From Candidatus Thorarchaeota archaeon (GTDB lineage Archaea > Asgardarchaeota > Thorarchaeia > Thorarchaeales > Thorarchaeaceae), in NCBI GenBank assembly GCA_016839245.1, contig JAEOUN010000092.1:1-64000 (forward strand): 64,000 bases of DNA, given 5' to 3'. Position 1 is the stretch's first letter, and each line of letters begins with the position of its first letter. Shown one piece after another: positions 21,596-32,003 of the stretch. Position numbers and translations under genes: made by a program. The notes beneath the pieces are model-generated. The model was not told the origin of the DNA, ran no database searches, and saw only the letters and a list, made by a program, of their open reading frames with translations.

Positions 21596-22672
21596 ATGAA
21601 TAGGAATGTAATTCTGGCAATAGTCGTTATAGCTGTCATTGGAGTTGCCGGATTTGGTGTGTACATGATGATTCAACCAGTGCACAATCCAAATCAGATA
21701 GCAATTGTTTTTGCTACTGGTGGTCTAGGCGACAAATCATTCAATGATGGCGTTTACGAAGGAGCAACAGAAGCAAGTGATGATTTTGACATCGGCTTCA
21801 CATTCTCCGAACCGACAGTTATTGCTGATTATGAGTCAATGATACGTGGCTATGCAGCGCATTCAGGTCTTATCGAACCTTATGATCTAATCATATGTGT
21901 TGGATATGATCAAGCTGATGCAGTCATGGCGGTAGCAGAAGACTATCCAGATCAGCAAATTGCTATCATTGATATGTATATTGATCCAACAAATTACACC
22001 AATGTTGCTTCAGTAATTTTCACTGAAAACCAGGGTTCTGCTCTTGTTGGTGCAATTGCTGGTATGTACACAACTACTGGCAAGGTTGGTTTCCTCGGAG
22101 GAATGGATATTCCACTCATCAGGAAATTTGCAGCTGGTTACTTCTGGGGTGCAAACTACTCCTACTACAATTATGTCAACGTAGGAGTGAACATCACAAC
22201 TACTGCACAGTATGTTGGTGATTGGGCTGACATTGCTACTGGTAAGAGCCTTTCATCAGGCATGTACACTGGTAATGCAGACATTATCTTTGCTGCAGCC
22301 GGAAGGTCTGGACTTGGTGCCTTTGAGGCGGCATTGGAGGAGAATGAGACATCATCACATCCCCTATGGGTCATTGGTGTTGACTCACCTCAGATGTATC
22401 TTGGATGTGAGGATTCAGAGAATCCTGAACCTCCGACAGTTTGCTTAACCTCGATGCTGAAACGTGTCGATGTTGCAACCTATGATATGATGAAGGATAT
22501 CAGTGATGATACCTATACTAGCGGCATAAAAGCCTACGATCTATCAAACGATGGTCATGACTATGAAGTCAACACTGAACTTCTCACATTACGAGAAGAT
22601 GTCGTTGATGTCGTTGAAATGATCCGAACTGGTATTATCAATGGCACTTTTGTAATTCCTGACGATTATTAG
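21596..22672 (+). CDS. BMP/PnrA-like substrate-binding protein of an ABC importer
   Basis: A 358-residue membrane-anchored receptor. Residues 5-27 are a hydrophobic anchor without a lipobox Cys. The core is a BMP-family (PnrA-like) periplasmic-binding fold: IAIVFATGGLGDKSFNDGVYEG near residue 38, DLIICVGYDQADA and GSALVGAIAGMYTTTGKVGFLGG. Family members bind purine nucleosides or related ligands for the NupOPQ/YufOPQ-type transporter. The ATPase and two permease genes follow at 22827-27084. A strong terminator separates the receptor from them. Confidence 0.88.
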   Translation: MNRNVILAIVVIAVIGVAGFGVYMMIQPVHNPNQIAIVFATGGLGDKSFNDGVYEGATEASDDFDIGFTFSEPTVIADYESMIRGYAAHSGLIEPYDLIICVGYDQADAVMAVAEDYPDQQIAIIDMYIDPTNYTNVASVIFTENQGSALVGAIAGMYTTTGKVGFLGGMDIPLIRKFAAGYFWGANYSYYNYVNVGVNITTTAQYVGDWADIATGKSLSSGMYTGNADIIFAAAGRSGLGAFEAALEENETSSHPLWVIGVDSPQMYLGCEDSENPEPPTVCLTSMLKRVDVATYDMMKDISDDTYTSGIKAYDLSNDGHDYEVNTELLTLREDVVDVVEMIRTGIINGTFVIPDDY

Positions 22673-22826: not shown

Positions 22827-24635
22827 ATTTACGCAGTAGAACTCGAAAATATTAGTAAGACATTCCCTGGTGGTGTTGAAGCTAATAAAAATATCACTCT
22901 GAGAATAGAGAAAGGCGAAGTACATGGACTTCTTGGGGAGAACGGAGCCGGTAAATCTACACTAATGAATATTCTTTATGGAATGTTAAAACCGACCTCT
23001 GGAAAAATTAAAATCAATGGTGAAGAAATGATTTTAGAATCACCAGAAGATGCAATTACGCACGGTGTTGGAATGGTACATCAACACTTCAAATTGATAC
23101 AACCCCTTACAGTCGCAGAAAATGTTGTTATAGGTCATGAAACACCTGGTAAGGAAATTAATGTACTTGCAAGAATTGTTACGATTATTTTTTCTCTGTT
23201 TAGTATCTTTTCATTCTATAGCTTTCTTGGATTAATTGAAGGCACTATTGTAACATTTGTTTTTGCTCTATTTGTCATAGGATTCTACAAGACTACAGAA
23301 ATTCTAGATTTCTTCATCGATAAAATCTCAAATTTTAAAACTAATAACTCAATTCTCAAAGGATTTCAACAATATGTACTATCAATTGTCTTAGTCCTCC
23401 GTTATGCCGCACTCAACTTTATTCCTGTAGGCTTTGAAGAAGCTATACAGCGAATAAATGAGATTGCTGAAGAAAATGGTCTTGAAATTGATCCACGACA
23501 AAAAATCTTAGATTTATCCGTTGGTCTACAGCAACGAGTTGAAATTATCAAGGCACTATATCGTGATGCAGATATTTTGATTTTAGACGAGCCTACTTCT
23601 GTGTTAACTCCACAGGAGGTCGATGAACTTTTTATCACACTTAACAAATTCCGAGATACAGGAAAGACCATCATCCTCATTACACATAAACTTCGTGAAC
23701 CTATGGTACTGTGTGATAGAATTTCTGTACTGAGAGATGGAGAATTAGTGGGTACAGTCAATAGAACTGATACTTCTCCTGAAGAACTTGCTCAAATGAT
23801 GGTTGGAAGACCCGTTGTATTCAGAGTTGAAAAGGGACCAGCAGCACCTGGCGATGTTGTACTATCTGTCAAGCATCTATCAGTTCAAGATGTTAGAGGA
23901 ATAACAGCTGTGAAAGATGTTTCATTTGAGATTCGCTCGGGTGAGATTTTTGGATTAGCTGGAGTTCAAGGAAACGGGCAAACTGAACTTATCGAAGCAT
24001 TGGCAGGACTTCGAAAGCCAATGAGTGGAACTATATCTATTCAAGGGACAGATGTAACCGGGCGAACTCCTCGCAATATCAAAGAAGCAGGGCTTGCACA
24101 TATTCCTGAAGATCGTCAGAAACGAGGACTTGTTTTAGCATTTTCAATTGAAGAAAATTTGGCTCTAGGAAATCATTACCATGAACCATATACCGAGAAA
24201 AAAGCAGGACTCTCAGGATTCCTCAATCTAAAGCAATTCCGTTCAAATGCTGAACATTTGGTTTCGGATTACTCAATAAAGATTGGACATGTCTATGATG
24301 AGGTAAGTACTCTGTCTGGGGGGAATCAGCAAAAAGTTGTTGTAGCACGTGAATTAAGCTCCAATCCAGCTATTGTCATTGCTGCACAACCAACAAGAGG
24401 GCTCGATGTTGGTGCAACTGAATATATTCATAATGTTCTTGTAGCTCTAAGAGACGCCGGGGTTGCCGTATTTTTAATCTCAGCAGAGCTCGATGAAATT
24501 CAGAGTCTATCAGATAGAATTGGAGTTATTTTTGACGGACACCTTGTAGCAATCAAGGATCCAGAACAGACAACTGCAGAGGAATTAGGACTACTAATGG
24601 CGGGCCATAATAATGAATTGGAGGTTGAGATTTAA
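22827..24635 (+). CDS. Dual ATPase of a nucleoside/BMP-type ABC importer, with membrane insertion
   Basis: A 602-residue protein with two ABC domains, like NupO/YufO. Domain 1 has Walker A GENGAGKST (37-45), Q-loop VHQHFKL, signature LSVGLQQR (230-237) and Walker B ILILDEPT. Domain 2 has GVQGNGQTE, LSGGNQQK and the AAQPTRGLD Walker-B region. Between the Q-loop and the signature of domain 1, residues 109-203 form a hydrophobic insertion of about 95 residues with about three membrane-helix-like stretches; relatives have only a short loop there. Coding similarity begins at YAVELENISKTF. No ATG, GTG or TTG lies there, so initiation seems to be at ATT 22827, seven nt after GGAGGT. The first ATG, 22965, would remove Walker A. 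The stop overlaps the next ATG. Confidence 0.9.
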   Translation: MYAVELENISKTFPGGVEANKNITLRIEKGEVHGLLGENGAGKSTLMNILYGMLKPTSGKIKINGEEMILESPEDAITHGVGMVHQHFKLIQPLTVAENVVIGHETPGKEINVLARIVTIIFSLFSIFSFYSFLGLIEGTIVTFVFALFVIGFYKTTEILDFFIDKISNFKTNNSILKGFQQYVLSIVLVLRYAALNFIPVGFEEAIQRINEIAEENGLEIDPRQKILDLSVGLQQRVEIIKALYRDADILILDEPTSVLTPQEVDELFITLNKFRDTGKTIILITHKLREPMVLCDRISVLRDGELVGTVNRTDTSPEELAQMMVGRPVVFRVEKGPAAPGDVVLSVKHLSVQDVRGITAVKDVSFEIRSGEIFGLAGVQGNGQTELIEALAGLRKPMSGTISIQGTDVTGRTPRNIKEAGLAHIPEDRQKRGLVLAFSIEENLALGNHYHEPYTEKKAGLSGFLNLKQFRSNAEHLVSDYSIKIGHVYDEVSTLSGGNQQKVVVARELSSNPAIVIAAQPTRGLDVGATEYIHNVLVALRDAGVAVFLISAELDEIQSLSDRIGVIFDGHLVAIKDPEQTTAEELGLLMAGHNNELEVEI

Positions 24636-26113
24636 TGACAGAAGAGATAACTACTTCTGAACAAAAATCTGAGAAAATGGATTTTATTGAAAATGCTATT
24701 AGACAATTTACTTCTCCTGAATTTCTAAAGAAAATAGGTCACACTGTCGTTTCAATTATCTTGGCACTAATTGTATCTGCAATAATCATGGTTGCTACTG
24801 GTTACGATCCCATTGCTGCTTTCTCTGCTTTGGGATTAGGTGCGCTATTGAATTTTGATCAAGTTTTGTTTAAAGCAACGCCCTTAATTCTTGCTGGATT
24901 GTCAGTAGCATTAGCATTCAAATGTGGACTGTTTAATATTGGAGCAGAAGGGCAATTGTACATGGGATCTATCGCTGCAACAGCAGTAGGATACATGGTT
25001 GCTCTACCATGGGGCATCCATCAATTGGCATGTATAGTTGTTGGAGTCCTTTCAGGACTACTATATGGACTTCTGCCGGGAATTCTGCGTGCTTATCGTG
25101 GAGCTCATGAAGTTGTTACTACAATGATGCTTAGTTACGCGGCTGTAAAATTCACGCAATGGTTAGTATCAGAGGGACCAATGCATAATCTTGACGATTC
25201 ACGAAGTGTATCCCCTTTTATCTTACCTACTGCTGAAATTGGCAAAATGTTTGGGAGTTCATTTCTCAGCTACGCTTTCATAATCGCGCTTCTTTGTGTT
25301 CCTCTAGTTAATTTCTTTATCAATAGAACTGTCATGGGATATGAGATGAGAGCCGTAGGGCAAAATGAGGATGCTGCTCAAACTGCAGGAATTGATGCAA
25401 AGAAAAACATGGCTTTAGCACTTGGTTTTAGTGGTGCACTAGCTGGACTTGCAGGAACGCTCGAGATACAAGGATATTACCGTCGTTTCTATGATGGATG
25501 GTCTGCGGGCTTAGGCTTTGATGGAATCACTGTTGCAGTATTAGGTAGAAACAATCCTTGGGGCGTTCTTGGTGGAGGTCTCTTTTTTGGTGCTTTGAAA
25601 GCTGGAGGATCATTTATGCAAACTAATGCAAATGTCCCCAGTGAAATGGTCCAAGTAATTCAGGGTTTGGTGGTACTGTTCGTTGCTGCACCAAGATTAG
25701 TAGACTGGCTTTCGGATCATGGAGTTAGCTATGCCTCATGGATTAAAACTAATCCAAAAATAGGATTTCTAAGTCTCTTTACTTTGGGATATGGAGTTCT
25801 AGGAGCTTTCTTAGGATTAACAGTTGCTAGTCCACTTGTTACAACGAATTTCACAACATTATTAGTGGGACTTGTCATTTCACTGGGAAGTCTTTTCATA
25901 GTAGTTTTCAATTACAAGATTGACAAGAGGCGTATCTCTTCCACATTAGGAGTCACCTCAATCTGGCTTGTCATGTTGTTGATTGGCGTAGTATTCCAAG
26001 TTCAGTCAATTATTGTAACTTCTGCCGCCCTATTCATAACAGGATTCATTCTATCTTTGCTTCTTATAGAAACCGATTCCGAAATCGATTTACCTATGGA
26101 GGTTGAAATGTGA
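24635..26113 (+). CDS. ABC importer permease 1 (NupP/YufP-like) with extra C-terminal helices
   Basis: A 492-residue permease of the BPD_transp_2 family. Residues 30-361 are the normal permease core, with family segments such as KCGLFNIGAEGQLYMG near residue 96, GAHEVVTTMMLSY and GYEMRAVGQNEDAAQTAGI. The remaining 131 residues are an extension with about four additional hydrophobic helices and an acidic tail; relatives normally end around residue 350. The ATG overlaps the stop of the ATPase gene (TAATG), so translation is coupled. Confidence 0.88.
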   Translation: MTEEITTSEQKSEKMDFIENAIRQFTSPEFLKKIGHTVVSIILALIVSAIIMVATGYDPIAAFSALGLGALLNFDQVLFKATPLILAGLSVALAFKCGLFNIGAEGQLYMGSIAATAVGYMVALPWGIHQLACIVVGVLSGLLYGLLPGILRAYRGAHEVVTTMMLSYAAVKFTQWLVSEGPMHNLDDSRSVSPFILPTAEIGKMFGSSFLSYAFIIALLCVPLVNFFINRTVMGYEMRAVGQNEDAAQTAGIDAKKNMALALGFSGALAGLAGTLEIQGYYRRFYDGWSAGLGFDGITVAVLGRNNPWGVLGGGLFFGALKAGGSFMQTNANVPSEMVQVIQGLVVLFVAAPRLVDWLSDHGVSYASWIKTNPKIGFLSLFTLGYGVLGAFLGLTVASPLVTTNFTTLLVGLVISLGSLFIVVFNYKIDKRRISSTLGVTSIWLVMLLIGVVFQVQSIIVTSAALFITGFILSLLLIETDSEIDLPMEVEM

Positions 26114-27084
26114 TGCAAGCAGATCCATTTTCTCTCATTATGATCGCTTGGTTAATCAAGACAACATTGCAATTCTCTACCCCTCTCGTGTTGACAGCAC
26201 TTGGTGGTATGTATTCAGAGCGATCAGGGATTGTAAACATCGGTCTTGAAGGAATGATGCTCATTGGAGCTTTTTCGGCCGTAGCATCAACATATTTCAC
26301 ATATGATCCTATTACCGGGGCATTTAATCCTTGGGTTGGTGTCATCGTTTCAGTTATTGCTGGTGGTATTTTAGCTGCTATACATGCAGTAATAACAGTG
26401 AAGCTGAAAGGTGACCATATTGTAAGCGGAACTGGAGTTATTCTCTTTGCGACTGGATTTACAACTTTAATGCTGCAGGTTGTATGGGGTCAACGAGGTG
26501 TTTCAGAACAAGTTGATAGTGTGCCGCTCTTGGTTATTCCAGGATTATCGGATGTGCCATTTATAGGTGATATTTTTGGTTCAATGTCACCTTTTGTTTA
26601 TATGATGTTCTTTGCCGTGATCATCAGCTGGGTCATCTTCTACAAGACACCATTTGGACTTCGCCTCCGAGCGGCTGGAGAGGATCCAAGTACACTTGAT
26701 GCTGCAGGAGTGAATGTCGAAACAATCAGAATGGTTGGTGTAATAATCAGTGGATGTCTAGCTGGTCTTGGTGGTGCATATCTCTCAATTGGATATGGCT
26801 CAAGGTTTGGAAAGCTTATGACTTCTGGTAGAGGATTCATCGCGCTTGCAGCGCTAATCTTTGGCGGCTGGAAACCCGTTGGAGTCTTTCTATCAGGAAC
26901 CTTTTTTGGATTCCTAGAAGCCTTGGAATCGTACTTTCAATTGACTATTCCTGCTTTGGCACCCTATAATAACTTCATCCAGATGATTCCATATATTCTG
27001 GTAGTAATTGCTCTCACTGGTATTGGTCGTTCACGTCCTCCAAAGGCGGTTGGACAACCATATGAAAAAGAAAAACCAGCTTAA
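26113..27084 (+). CDS. ABC importer permease 2 (NupQ/YufQ-like)
   Basis: A 323-residue permease of the BPD_transp_2 family. TPLVLTALGGMYSERSGIVNIGLEGMML near the N-terminus is the hallmark of the second permease, followed by TPFGLRLRAAGEDPSTLDAAGV. It completes the importer with permease 1 and the dual ATPase. Start: ATG 26113 overlaps the TGA of the previous gene (TGATG), while GTG 26110 is in the same frame; GGAGGT lies at 26098-26103. The C-terminal tail is Lys/Pro-rich and cytoplasmic. Confidence 0.88.
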   Translation: MQADPFSLIMIAWLIKTTLQFSTPLVLTALGGMYSERSGIVNIGLEGMMLIGAFSAVASTYFTYDPITGAFNPWVGVIVSVIAGGILAAIHAVITVKLKGDHIVSGTGVILFATGFTTLMLQVVWGQRGVSEQVDSVPLLVIPGLSDVPFIGDIFGSMSPFVYMMFFAVIISWVIFYKTPFGLRLRAAGEDPSTLDAAGVNVETIRMVGVIISGCLAGLGGAYLSIGYGSRFGKLMTSGRGFIALAALIFGGWKPVGVFLSGTFFGFLEALESYFQLTIPALAPYNNFIQMIPYILVVIALTGIGRSRPPKAVGQPYEKEKPA

Positions 27085-27154: not shown

Positions 27155-27901
27155 TTGTACCAGGAACATAGAAGAGTCCTTCTCGGATTTGGGATTCTAA
27201 CGCTTATCGTCCTAGTTGGGTTCACACCGAAGATAGCGAGTGCTAAGCTTATCTGGTCTGAAACTTTCAATGAACTAGATGAAGAAAACTGGCATTTTGT
27301 AGAATGCCAAATAGTTGATGGTGTCTTGCGTGGAGTGCAACAGTCACCAGTTACTCAAGAAGATCGTTCTGCAATGAGAGCATATCGACACTCCAATGTC
27401 ACAATTGGCACATGGAAATTTGATATGACGGAAGTGGGTGAGTGGGATGAAGAGCTTGACATATTGAAAGTATACATCATAAGCCCGCACTGGCCCGAGC
27501 TCTCAGACTATTACGCATTGACCCTTGTCCATGCATCCAATATGGACGGCATTAGATATTCTTACTCGATAGAAAAGTGGTACGAGTCAAGTAAAACAAT
27601 TCTTGATAATCATCTTGGAGACACCGCACCTACTGGTGATGGCATACTACAACATTTTACAATTACTAGAACTATCAATGGCTTATTCTCAGTATATCTT
27701 AATTCATCATTGATATTGCAGGCAAGTGATACGTCAATTAATACTTCTGGATATTTTGGATTTTATACATGGGATGATTGGTCGTTTGATAATGTCTATG
27801 TCTATGATTCTGTTGAGAGTGACATAACTTTGCCGCTATTGTTAGCTGGAGTGCTTATTGTTGGAGTCATAGTTGTGACTATTCTATATCTCAAGAAGTG
27901 A
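27155..27901 (+). CDS. Tail-anchored surface protein, LamG-like
   Basis: A 248-residue secreted protein. Residues 8-29 are a signal/anchor (LLGFGILTLIVLVGFTPKIASA). The body WSETFNELDEENWHF...DNVYVYDS is a concanavalin/LamG-like beta sandwich as found in carbohydrate-binding surface proteins. It ends in a membrane helix (LLLAGVLIVGVIVVTILYL) and KK. The start is TTG 27155 with AAGG a few nt upstream. It is the second of four anchored surface proteins in this window. Confidence 0.65.
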   Translation: MYQEHRRVLLGFGILTLIVLVGFTPKIASAKLIWSETFNELDEENWHFVECQIVDGVLRGVQQSPVTQEDRSAMRAYRHSNVTIGTWKFDMTEVGEWDEELDILKVYIISPHWPELSDYYALTLVHASNMDGIRYSYSIEKWYESSKTILDNHLGDTAPTGDGILQHFTITRTINGLFSVYLNSSLILQASDTSINTSGYFGFYTWDDWSFDNVYVYDSVESDITLPLLLAGVLIVGVIVVTILYLKK

Positions 27902-28112: not shown

Positions 28113-28583
28113 GTGCTGATGGTCATAGAAAATACTACCTCCTACCATGATACTAAATTACGACTTCATGATTTAGTTACATTTAGTAAAATTAGTTCTA
28201 TCGAATTAATTAGTGAACAGATTGGGATTGATGAGGAAACGATAAAGGAGTTTTTACAAGATTTAGTGGATGAAGGTTCAATCATTGGCACATTGACTGA
28301 AGACGGTAAACGGTTCTACTTGTCAGATGTTAAAATATCCACAGCTCCAATCGTTACACATGAAGAATATGCAACAAAACCACAAGTCAAGACTACCAAA
28401 CATGCCAAAGTAATTTCTCTGACAGGAATAGTCATGATGGTTCTTGGTTCAATATTACGAAGCTTTGTTGCAATCGATATTCGTTTTGACAATGTAGGTA
28501 CAGCAGTCTTCATGTTGGGTATTGTTGTTTTAGTAGTCGGTTGGATGTTGATTAGTCGTGCAAATCCTCCACAAAAAATCTAA
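28113..28583 (+). CDS. Winged-helix protein with two C-terminal membrane helices
   Basis: A 156-residue protein. Residues 1-75 form a winged-helix-like domain: KISSIELISEQIGIDEETIKEFLQDLVDEGSIIGTLTEDGKRFYLSD. This pattern is seen in PCI-domain and UFL1/DDRGK1-type winged helices, and also in archaeal transcription regulators. A linker leads to two hydrophobic segments (VISLTGIVMMVLGSILRSF and VFMLGIVVLVVGWMLI). The start is GTG 28113 or ATG 28119. Its role as membrane-bound regulator or adaptor is unknown. Confidence 0.6.
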   Translation: MLMVIENTTSYHDTKLRLHDLVTFSKISSIELISEQIGIDEETIKEFLQDLVDEGSIIGTLTEDGKRFYLSDVKISTAPIVTHEEYATKPQVKTTKHAKVISLTGIVMMVLGSILRSFVAIDIRFDNVGTAVFMLGIVVLVVGWMLISRANPPQKI

Positions 28584-30617: not shown

Positions 30618-32003
30618 TTAAGCTTGAGAATATGGAATGTCATCTTCAAGGTGGATGTGAGTTTCTCCCTTCACTGGCTGTCGTACCTTCAATAGTAGTA
30701 GTATTGAAACTACGAAGAAGATTAGAATAGCCAACATAGCTGTGAGGTGTGATTGCGCAACAAGTGCAGCGTCCCGTGTCGGATTCGCTAACAATAAAAT
30801 GGTTCCATAGACAAAGGGTCCAAGAATTGCAGCAAACTTACCAGTAAGTGCATAGAAGCCATACATCTCACTCTTCTTTTCTTCAGGAATGAATTGACCA
30901 TACATTGAACGCGCAGTACTTTGTGATGAGCCCATTCCAACTCCAGCAATCATACCAACTGTCCACCAAACTAGTTGTCCCCAAGCAACGAACAAATATG
31001 CTATGATAAGTGCGACAACCCAGATGAACAGAGTAGAGATGAGTGTCTTCTTCGTACCGATCTTATCTGCCACCCATCCAAATACGAATGCTCCAGGTAT
31101 TGCAGCTAGCTGTGTCACAGCAAAGAAGACTAGTGTCATAGTTGTACTAAATTCATATACTGCAACACCAAAAATAGCAGCATAGTAGATGACTGTTGTT
31201 ATTGCATCACTAAAAAGGAAGTACGCTAACAGGAATAAAGGCAATCCCTGATATTTTCTAATATTCTTGACAGTATTCCTAACTCGCCGAAAACCCAAGA
31301 CAGCTAGTGATTGACCCTCTTCACCAGGGAAAACCTTGGCTGGTCTGTTTTTCAACATTATAAAGCTGGGAATAGCAAATCCCATGAAGAATAGCGCGCT
31401 GAGATAGAACGCAAGAGTATAGGGCAAATCCATCAATATTACGATAAGAGCAATAACGATTGTGGCCATTGCACCTACATATCCAGCGGCAAATCCATAA
31501 CCTCCTATTCTGCCAATATTCTCTTCTGTACTGATTTCAGGGAGCCAAGCATTATAAAATGGAAGTGCTCCTTGAAAGCCTATATTGGCGATTATGAAGA
31601 CTATCCAAGCCCATACCCATATATCAAGACCCAGAAATGAACCAAAATTCATTGTCGCTGCAAGATCTGACTGGGAATAAGTTATTCCTGGAAGGAATAC
31701 CATGAATGATGTAAATACTACACAGACTCCTGTATAGAACAACATGAATTGCTTCTTTGTTCCGCCATAGTCCGCAATTGCTCCAAGCACAGGGGCAGTT
31801 AATGCAATAATGAGCATGGTTATACTGCCCGCATATCCCCACATTGCATCTCCAAGAGTCTCATTTTGAACTAGAATCCTGAAGTATAATGGGAACAGAG
31901 CAGTAACAATTAGAACGGTAAAGCTAGTATTAGCTAAATCGTATAGGTACCAGCCAAATCGTTCCTTTCGATCTGTTGGAATTACTTCGACAGTTTCTTC
32001 CAT
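30618..32003 (-). CDS. UMF1-family MFS transporter
   Basis: A 461-residue major-facilitator protein with twelve predicted helices. The start region RFGWYLYDLANTSFTVLIVTALFPLYF and the WAYGGSITM-like helix are typical of the UMF1 (Atg22-like) family. The loop WVADKIGTKKTL after helix 8 is the MFS loop motif. It may move amino acids or small peptides, but the substrate is not known. SD AGGAG precedes the ATG by about 9 nt. Confidence 0.85.
   Translation of the reverse strand: MEETVEVIPTDRKERFGWYLYDLANTSFTVLIVTALFPLYFRILVQNETLGDAMWGYAGSITMLIIALTAPVLGAIADYGGTKKQFMLFYTGVCVVFTSFMVFLPGITYSQSDLAATMNFGSFLGLDIWVWAWIVFIIANIGFQGALPFYNAWLPEISTEENIGRIGGYGFAAGYVGAMATIVIALIVILMDLPYTLAFYLSALFFMGFAIPSFIMLKNRPAKVFPGEEGQSLAVLGFRRVRNTVKNIRKYQGLPLFLLAYFLFSDAITTVIYYAAIFGVAVYEFSTTMTLVFFAVTQLAAIPGAFVFGWVADKIGTKKTLISTLFIWVVALIIAYLFVAWGQLVWWTVGMIAGVGMGSSQSTARSMYGQFIPEEKKSEMYGFYALTGKFAAILGPFVYGTILLLANPTRDAALVAQSHLTAMLAILIFFVVSILLLLKVRQPVKGETHIHLEDDIPYSQA

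Follow-up and report, generated by a model that had tools for sequence, protein, structure and literature searches.

Membrane-type helices built into an importer ATPase of Thorarchaeota and related archaea suggest a membrane-anchored motor

The importer locus and its ATPase

The window, a stretch of 64,000 nucleotides from a contig of a Candidatus Thorarchaeota archaeon, encodes the following importer genes on its forward strand.

21596..22672, + strand: BMP/PnrA-type substrate-binding protein, 358 aa (Pfam Bmp, PF02608, E 1.4e-45)
22827..24635, + strand: NupO-like tandem ABC ATPase, 602 aa, probable ATT start (open frame; two ABC_tran stretches, E 1.8e-51)
24635..26113, + strand: permease 1, 492 aa, with a hydrophobic C-terminal extension of ~130 aa (PF02653 over residues 74-350)
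26110..27084, + strand: permease 2, 324 aa (PF02653, E 6.7e-43)

These are the same parts as in NupNOPQ, the guanosine importer of Bacillus subtilis: a BMP-family binding protein gene (PF02608) beside the ATPase, two PF02653 permeases (24635-26113 and 26110-27084), and two NBDs in one chain with a degenerate second site, recognizable as GNGQTE and AAQPTRG in NBD2 of the window. The fused NBDs and the degenerate site are shared with NupO and RbsA, described in parts of PMC11466899 as having two NBDs in one chain, a second Walker A without lysine and one degenerate site. The ATPase departs from the type in one respect, having 602 aa and an insert region (I1) of 130 residues where about 500 aa and a short loop between Q-loop and signature are expected, and for this reason it is treated as a variant of the BMP/NupNOPQ importer type. 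Among the best 25 of 188 NCBIfam families no cut-off was reached, the top one being a putative B6 importer ATPase (439 bits vs 670).

Hydrophobicity is expressed throughout as the maximum of a 19-residue Kyte-Doolittle window (KD19), with at least 2.0 taken as the level of a membrane helix. At its N-terminus the binding protein (21596-22672) carries a hydrophobic helix (KD19 2.77), and its first 45 residues contain no cysteine; it is therefore probably anchored by this helix and not a lipoprotein. The C-terminal extension of permease 1 (25700-26113) matched no Pfam family better than E 0.044; 113 of the best 120 matches of this permease, in a ranking that favours long ones, have 482-523 aa, and the downstream reading frames at 72 of 80 bacterial or haloarchaeal loci (best 80 of 595) have a median of 372 aa, two exceeding 500. 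ATPases could be paired, through contigs of identical length, with 31 of the best 120 permease matches, the window's own included, and a link between I1 and the permease extension was not supported, permeases of 482-523 aa (one of 690) occurring with 17 ATPases that carry a membrane-type I1 and 14 that do not. Directly 3' of the permeases lies a gene (27155-27901) for a 248-aa protein that is hydrophobic at both ends and has no Pfam family, a possible partner of the importer. Farther along are a small protein with hydrophobic stretches (28113-28583) and a weak match to the DDRGK domain (20.6 bits against a cut-off of 27.8), DDRGK proteins being part of the eukaryotic UFM1 pathway, and a major-facilitator protein (30618-32003) that matches ATG22, a vacuole effluxer family (E 8.7e-46).

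The reading frame of the ATPase is open from before 22797 to its stop at 24635, passing through the insertion as originally claimed, and a search for a frameshift pair around the insert found none. Translation probably starts at an ATT codon at 22827, preceded by GGAGG, which gives 602 residues; the first in-frame ATG, GTG or TTG is that of an internal Met at 22965. Homologues have the N-termini MYAVELEN (P0075) and LYAVELEN (P0093), and P0018-P0021 and P0031 were also called from the internal Met equivalent to 22965, which suggests that an unusual start codon is common to these relatives. The elements of the ATPase referred to below are these.

22935-22961, + strand: NBD1 Walker A, GENGAGKST (sequence motif)
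23073-23090, + strand: Q-loop, MVHQHF (sequence motif)
23118..23135, + strand: ENVVIG, in the helical subdomain of NBD1 after the Q-loop, with no further conserved element between it and the insert (its E, N and G do not vary in alignment A1)
23151..23435, + strand: insert I1, residues 109-203; 130 residues from ENVxxG to signature vs 55-61 in relatives classed as uninserted
23175..23231, + strand: membrane helix 1, about residues 117-135 (KD19 2.01; helix in the AlphaFold2 model)
23241..23297, + strand: membrane helix 2, about residues 139-157 (KD19 2.36 at residues 133-151; helix in the AlphaFold2 model)
23352..23420, + strand: third, weaker hydrophobic helix, probably interfacial (KD19 1.86; model helix 174-195, numbered from the Tyr after the start)
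23514..23534, + strand: NBD1 signature, LSVGLQQ, degenerate site (sequence motif)
23574-23597, + strand: NBD1 Walker B, ILILDEPT (sequence motif)
23961..23987, + strand: NBD2 Walker A, GVQGNGQTE, with Gln in place of lysine (Gln in 138/138 rows)
24039..24059, + strand: beta turn of the NBD2 antiparallel subdomain, the site of a four-helix insert (I2) in some relatives and empty in the window
24312..24332, + strand: NBD2 signature, LSGGNQQ, catalytic site (sequence motif)

The insert in the window and among relatives

The original prediction placed a hydrophobic insertion at residues 109-203, between Q-loop and signature, and these coordinates (23151-23435) hold; the flanking motifs that it called intact, Walker A, Q-loop, signature and Walker B, were all found. 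Its three hydrophobic segments are not equal. Two are of membrane-helix level (2.01 and 2.36), and the third, YVLSIVLVLRYAALNF, peaks at KD19 1.86. We read YVLSIVLVLRYAALNF as probably interfacial, because an insert with three spans would have one of its ends outside the cell. A Pfam search of I1, with filters that drop many weak matches, returned no family at E 1. Taken alone, the window sequence is weak evidence for a helix pair: when the 601-residue window protein was shuffled with the insert residues counted in its composition, two separate windows of at least 2.0 also arose in 289 of 2000 cases.

Two protein searches, each giving the best 120 of 8000 scored, yielded 139 homologues besides the window's own, and 138 sequences, the window included, were classified by insert length after removal of P0060, whose motif was not parsed, and of the partial P0123. 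The named homologues are Thorarchaeota, Lokiarchaeota, Odinarchaeota or Promethearchaeota, the Asgard status of the remainder being inferred, and the 138 rows include many close kin and are not independent. Among these listed matches a membrane-type I1 is present in 66 of 138 sequences, a membrane-type I2, in the second ATPase domain, in 19 of 138, and no insert of any kind in 53 of 138. The commonest inserted arrangement is a two-helix I1 only (51/138), followed by a longer soluble I1 (10), a four-helix I2 only (8), a long I1 of 157 aa with a two-helix I2 (5), a two-helix I1 with a soluble I2 (4) and a two-helix I1 with a four-helix I2 (3). Single sequences among the 138 have a two-helix I2 only (P0095), four helices at both places (P0115), a long I1 only (P0124) or two helices at both places (P0141). 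By the hydrophobic-window criterion, one parsed row shows just one window in I1.

It is the homologues that settle the membrane-type hydrophobicity of the insert. All 59 of the 59 two-helix-length rows among the matches listed reach KD19 2.03-3.21 inside the insert, and the remainder of the same proteins stays at or below 1.78. P0085, a relative without the insert, has a stretch of KD19 2.22 at another place, so hydrophobicity alone is no clean separator. The closest relatives among the matches listed, P0003 (82 percent) and P0004 (74 percent), both carry the insert, as do relatives from several sources; its absence from all close relatives, which would have spoken against the prediction, was thus not found. 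I1 is real and inherited. It diverges faster than the core, with 58 vs 87 percent identity between the window and P0003, and nevertheless remains hydrophobic across the 66 rows.

Bacterial and haloarchaeal relatives of the NupO type present a different picture. Unlike the window ATPase, none of the best 80 of 595 matches has a hydrophobic insert or reaches KD19 2.0, the largest value being 1.74. They are shorter than the 602 aa found here, spanning 489-525 aa, and have the short loop that had been expected of them: the Q-loop-signature spacing could be read in 38 of the 80 and is 54-58 residues in 37 and 87, not hydrophobic, in one. The scan of genome contigs returned only bacterial or haloarchaeal loci, and none from Asgard archaea, among its best 80 of 595. 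Relatives of a haloarchaeon gave 0/392 matches at 1e-135, a result that does not count as evidence, and viral contigs gave one fragment match (47 percent).

Charge distribution points to a topology. Across the 59 two-helix rows the inter-helix loops total 166 residues, of which 1 is K or R and 35 are D or E, and the 12-residue flanks of the hairpin have K+R 145/707 and 112/708, with D+E 85 and 57. Helix positions were chosen for maximal hydrophobicity, a criterion that disfavours acidic and basic residues to about the same degree and so should not itself cause the asymmetry between loop and flanks. The loop charges predict a membrane-crossing hairpin whose two ends are cytoplasmic. No K or R occurs in the loops of 13 clade representatives, and these loops have 1-4 residues in 12 of the 13; the loop of P0093 has 14 residues; the sole loop K/R among the 59 rows is in P0003, the window's nearest relative among the matches listed. 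The window itself is a weak example of the bias, with one K/R and two D/E on each side, so that acidic residues outnumber basic ones in its flanks.

AlphaFold2 models also place helices in the insert. The model of the window ATPase (53 rows; mean pLDDT 84, pTM 0.65) has I1 helices at 112-153, 155-167 and 174-195, numbered from the Tyr after the start, with block pLDDT 80-94 over residues 111-190; a single 42-residue helix stands where the hairpin is expected, and the hairpin is not clear in this model. That of P0093 (35 rows; mean pLDDT 74, pTM 0.55, parts of NBD1 below 50) has helices at 113-133 and 149-177 with a short strand hairpin between them (block pLDDT 66-81), and an I2 of four helices of 25-30 residues each. 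Foldseek with the window model gave the OppD and DppD chains of M. tuberculosis as first matches.

ATP sites and the origin of the inserts

The two ATP sites can be told apart by their motifs. In the rows listed, NBD1 has the Walker A Lys in 132/132 read, Walker B with Glu in 137/138 and the H-loop His in 138/138, and NBD2 has Gln in Walker A (138/138) and in Walker B (137/137 read) and lacks the H-loop His, which is replaced by Ala in 128, Thr in 2 and Ser in 1 of 131 read. With Lys, Glu and His kept in NBD1 and replaced in NBD2, the catalytic site consists of the NBD1 Walker motifs and the NBD2 signature, and the degenerate site of the NBD2 Walker motifs and the NBD1 signature. The subdomains that carry the inserts, the helical one of NBD1 for I1 and the antiparallel one of NBD2 for I2, both help build the degenerate site. 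Among the 138 sequences listed, only these two of four equivalent places vary; the equivalent places of the catalytic site are constant in length, at 37-39 residues (132 rows read) and 60-65 (129 rows read).

A quick tree was made from 147 rows with the inserts removed, 9 of them from the outgroup (another 24 outgroup frames were left unparsed), and its groups were named after tree inspection. On this tree at least 2 changes are required for the membrane-type I1 and at least 9 for the membrane-type I2. When the 66 I1 rows were constrained to one clade, the log-likelihood was 17.6 higher (p-AU 0.74), and a single origin of I1 is not rejected. A single origin of the four-helix I2 is rejected, the p for its 12 rows as one clade being 6e-39. 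Identity in the I2 domain mostly tracks that of the core, with P0134 and P0135 as exceptions, a pattern in which gain, loss and transfer are not distinguishable. The place of I2 varies: in P0095 it precedes the first strand, in the four-helix group it sits at the beta turn, and in P0109 and P0141 it follows the strands. These differing places suggest that the I2 inserts were acquired separately.

Insert-only profiles were built for seven groups that hold 55 of the 66 I1 rows. The profile of the window clade matched four of the six other groups with 97.9, 93.0, 90.6 and 78.0 percent probability, and B3 and B5 with 4.9 and 12.4 percent; over all 21 pairs, 8 were at 75 percent or above, 3 at 47-74 and 10 below 20, most of these involving small groups. 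An origin of I1 as a copy of the permease helices of its own operon was rejected: none of 11 permease segments scored above 1.1 percent with the insert profile, in a comparison with single sequences, a weaker test than one with alignments. In P0115, known from a single 3.2 kb contig, the I1 hairpin is apparently present twice (28 percent identity over 78 residues; blastp 9e-10, calculated without composition correction in a tiny search space).

The original prediction concerned NBD1, where the insertion is indeed present; the pattern is wider and includes NBD2 inserts and extra permease domains in relatives. The four-helix I2 profile matched the N-terminal domain of the permeases P0202 (690 aa) and P0233 (592 aa) with 94.8 percent probability (E 5e-8), and six control segments of the same permeases reached at most 0.3 percent. 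Divided by I2 subgroup, the match was 87.4 and 93.7, but 1.2 for P0115 alone, and an hmmsearch match of I2 to P0202 (E 2.5e-5) has a large composition bias and adds little. Permease P0202 and ATPase P0122 come from contigs of the same length, 46407, and are therefore probably encoded as neighbours. From these profiles it is possible that the N-terminal extra domain of P0202 and P0233 and the four-helix I2 are one portable membrane module. The four-helix I2 insert has two HG motifs, and the permease domain of P0202 and P0233 has one.

A putative anchor for the ABC motor

As ABC importers are generally understood, their ATPase domains stay in the cytosol and are held to the membrane part where coupling helices dock. 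In this Asgard group the importer ATPase has a built-in pair of membrane-type helices, which suggests that the motor itself is anchored in the membrane. We lean towards the reading that I1 is a two-helix membrane hairpin anchoring the ATPase of a BMP/NupNOPQ-type importer as a tether to its permease, although membrane insertion, permease contact and tether function are what we infer. Anchoring through the helical subdomain, as originally proposed, is the best-supported prediction, drawing on the hydrophobicity, the two main helices, the charge bias of the family, the conserved place and the AlphaFold2 helices. The hairpin would leave the NBD1 helical subdomain right after ENVVIG, traverse the membrane and return, and the weaker third helix would then sit at the inner membrane face. 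ENVVIG is a motif that we take to be the same as that of the CFTR F508 region. Homology models reported in parts of PMC3776845 predict that F508 lies within the binding site of a coupling loop (CL4). Packed beside the permease, the hairpin might hold NBD1 in its docked place throughout ATP turnover; a tethered motor could not drift off, its helical subdomain would move about a fixed membrane hinge, and the degenerate half would be anchored and the catalytic half free. That the insert changes faster than the core yet stays hydrophobic is as expected of an anchor. The 53 of 138 rows without insert indicate that such an anchor is not essential to the importer design.

A rather unlikely alternative is that the membrane hairpin binds another membrane protein or a regulator, like the TMD0 of some ABC exporters, instead of holding the motor to the permease. 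In its favour, the inserts differ in number and place, the presence of the four-helix module in NBD2 and, judged by profile, on two permeases is what a portable interaction module would show, and the 248-aa protein encoded directly downstream (27155-27901) is a candidate partner; the TMD0 of TAPL, which has four helices, is termed an interaction and targeting hub in parts of PMC6199259. The fast change of the insert relative to the core disfavours a conserved binding face. It is improbable that the hairpin serves as an assembly clamp, lying on the cytosolic face of the permease and never entering lipid. The one continuous helix of the window model and the very short loop would suit such a clamp, but KD19 values of 2.03-3.21 in 59/59 two-helix rows, loops nearly without K/R and the 14 residues between the P0093 helices speak against it. 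Still less probable is a neutral ratchet, in which functionless insertions were tolerated and then kept since loss is hard; the scattered I2, with its 12 four-helix rows rejected as one clade, the fast sequence change and the restriction to the degenerate site, which also fits mere tolerance, are in line with this, but an I1 that is hydrophobic throughout 66 rows is not. An assembly artefact or pseudogene, for which the missing standard start codon is all that was found, can be set aside, as the same insert in homologues from several sources rules out misassembly or frameshift and the frame is open with intact motifs.

Among the systems closest to the anchor is TMD0, an accessory membrane domain of the ABC transporters TAP1/2, TAPL, ABCB6 and SUR1. 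Like I1 it consists of extra membrane helices outside the core, four of them in TAPL according to parts of PMC6199259, but it is N-terminal to the membrane domain, whereas I1 of the window is enclosed within NBD1 of the importer's ATPase. The extra domain of the permeases P0202 and P0233 is N-terminal, as TMD0 is. The regulatory insert of CFTR NBD1, disordered and phospho-regulatory according to parts of PMC3776845, is within an ABC ATPase domain as I1 is, but does not span the membrane. Parts of PMC7997004, on Asgard transporters, contain no mention of such an insert. The view that no ABC importer of this design had been described agrees with text searches aimed at the design, whose first results, subscription papers and preprints being outside their scope, showed nothing alike. 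The system still belongs to a known importer type, of which it is a variant. We know of no other membrane inserts at these places of an ATPase.

Only tentatively would we go further and see in these genes an importer class with an integral-membrane motor. Membrane modules would have been gained repeatedly and, among the 138 sequences, only around the degenerate site; a four-helix module would be shared by an ATPase and its probable partner permease, and the degenerate half would be anchored and static while the free catalytic half moves. If this is true, these importers would be a natural case of a tethered ABC motor in which the role of the degenerate site becomes testable, and soluble ATPase domains would have acquired membrane modules in archaea related to eukaryotes.
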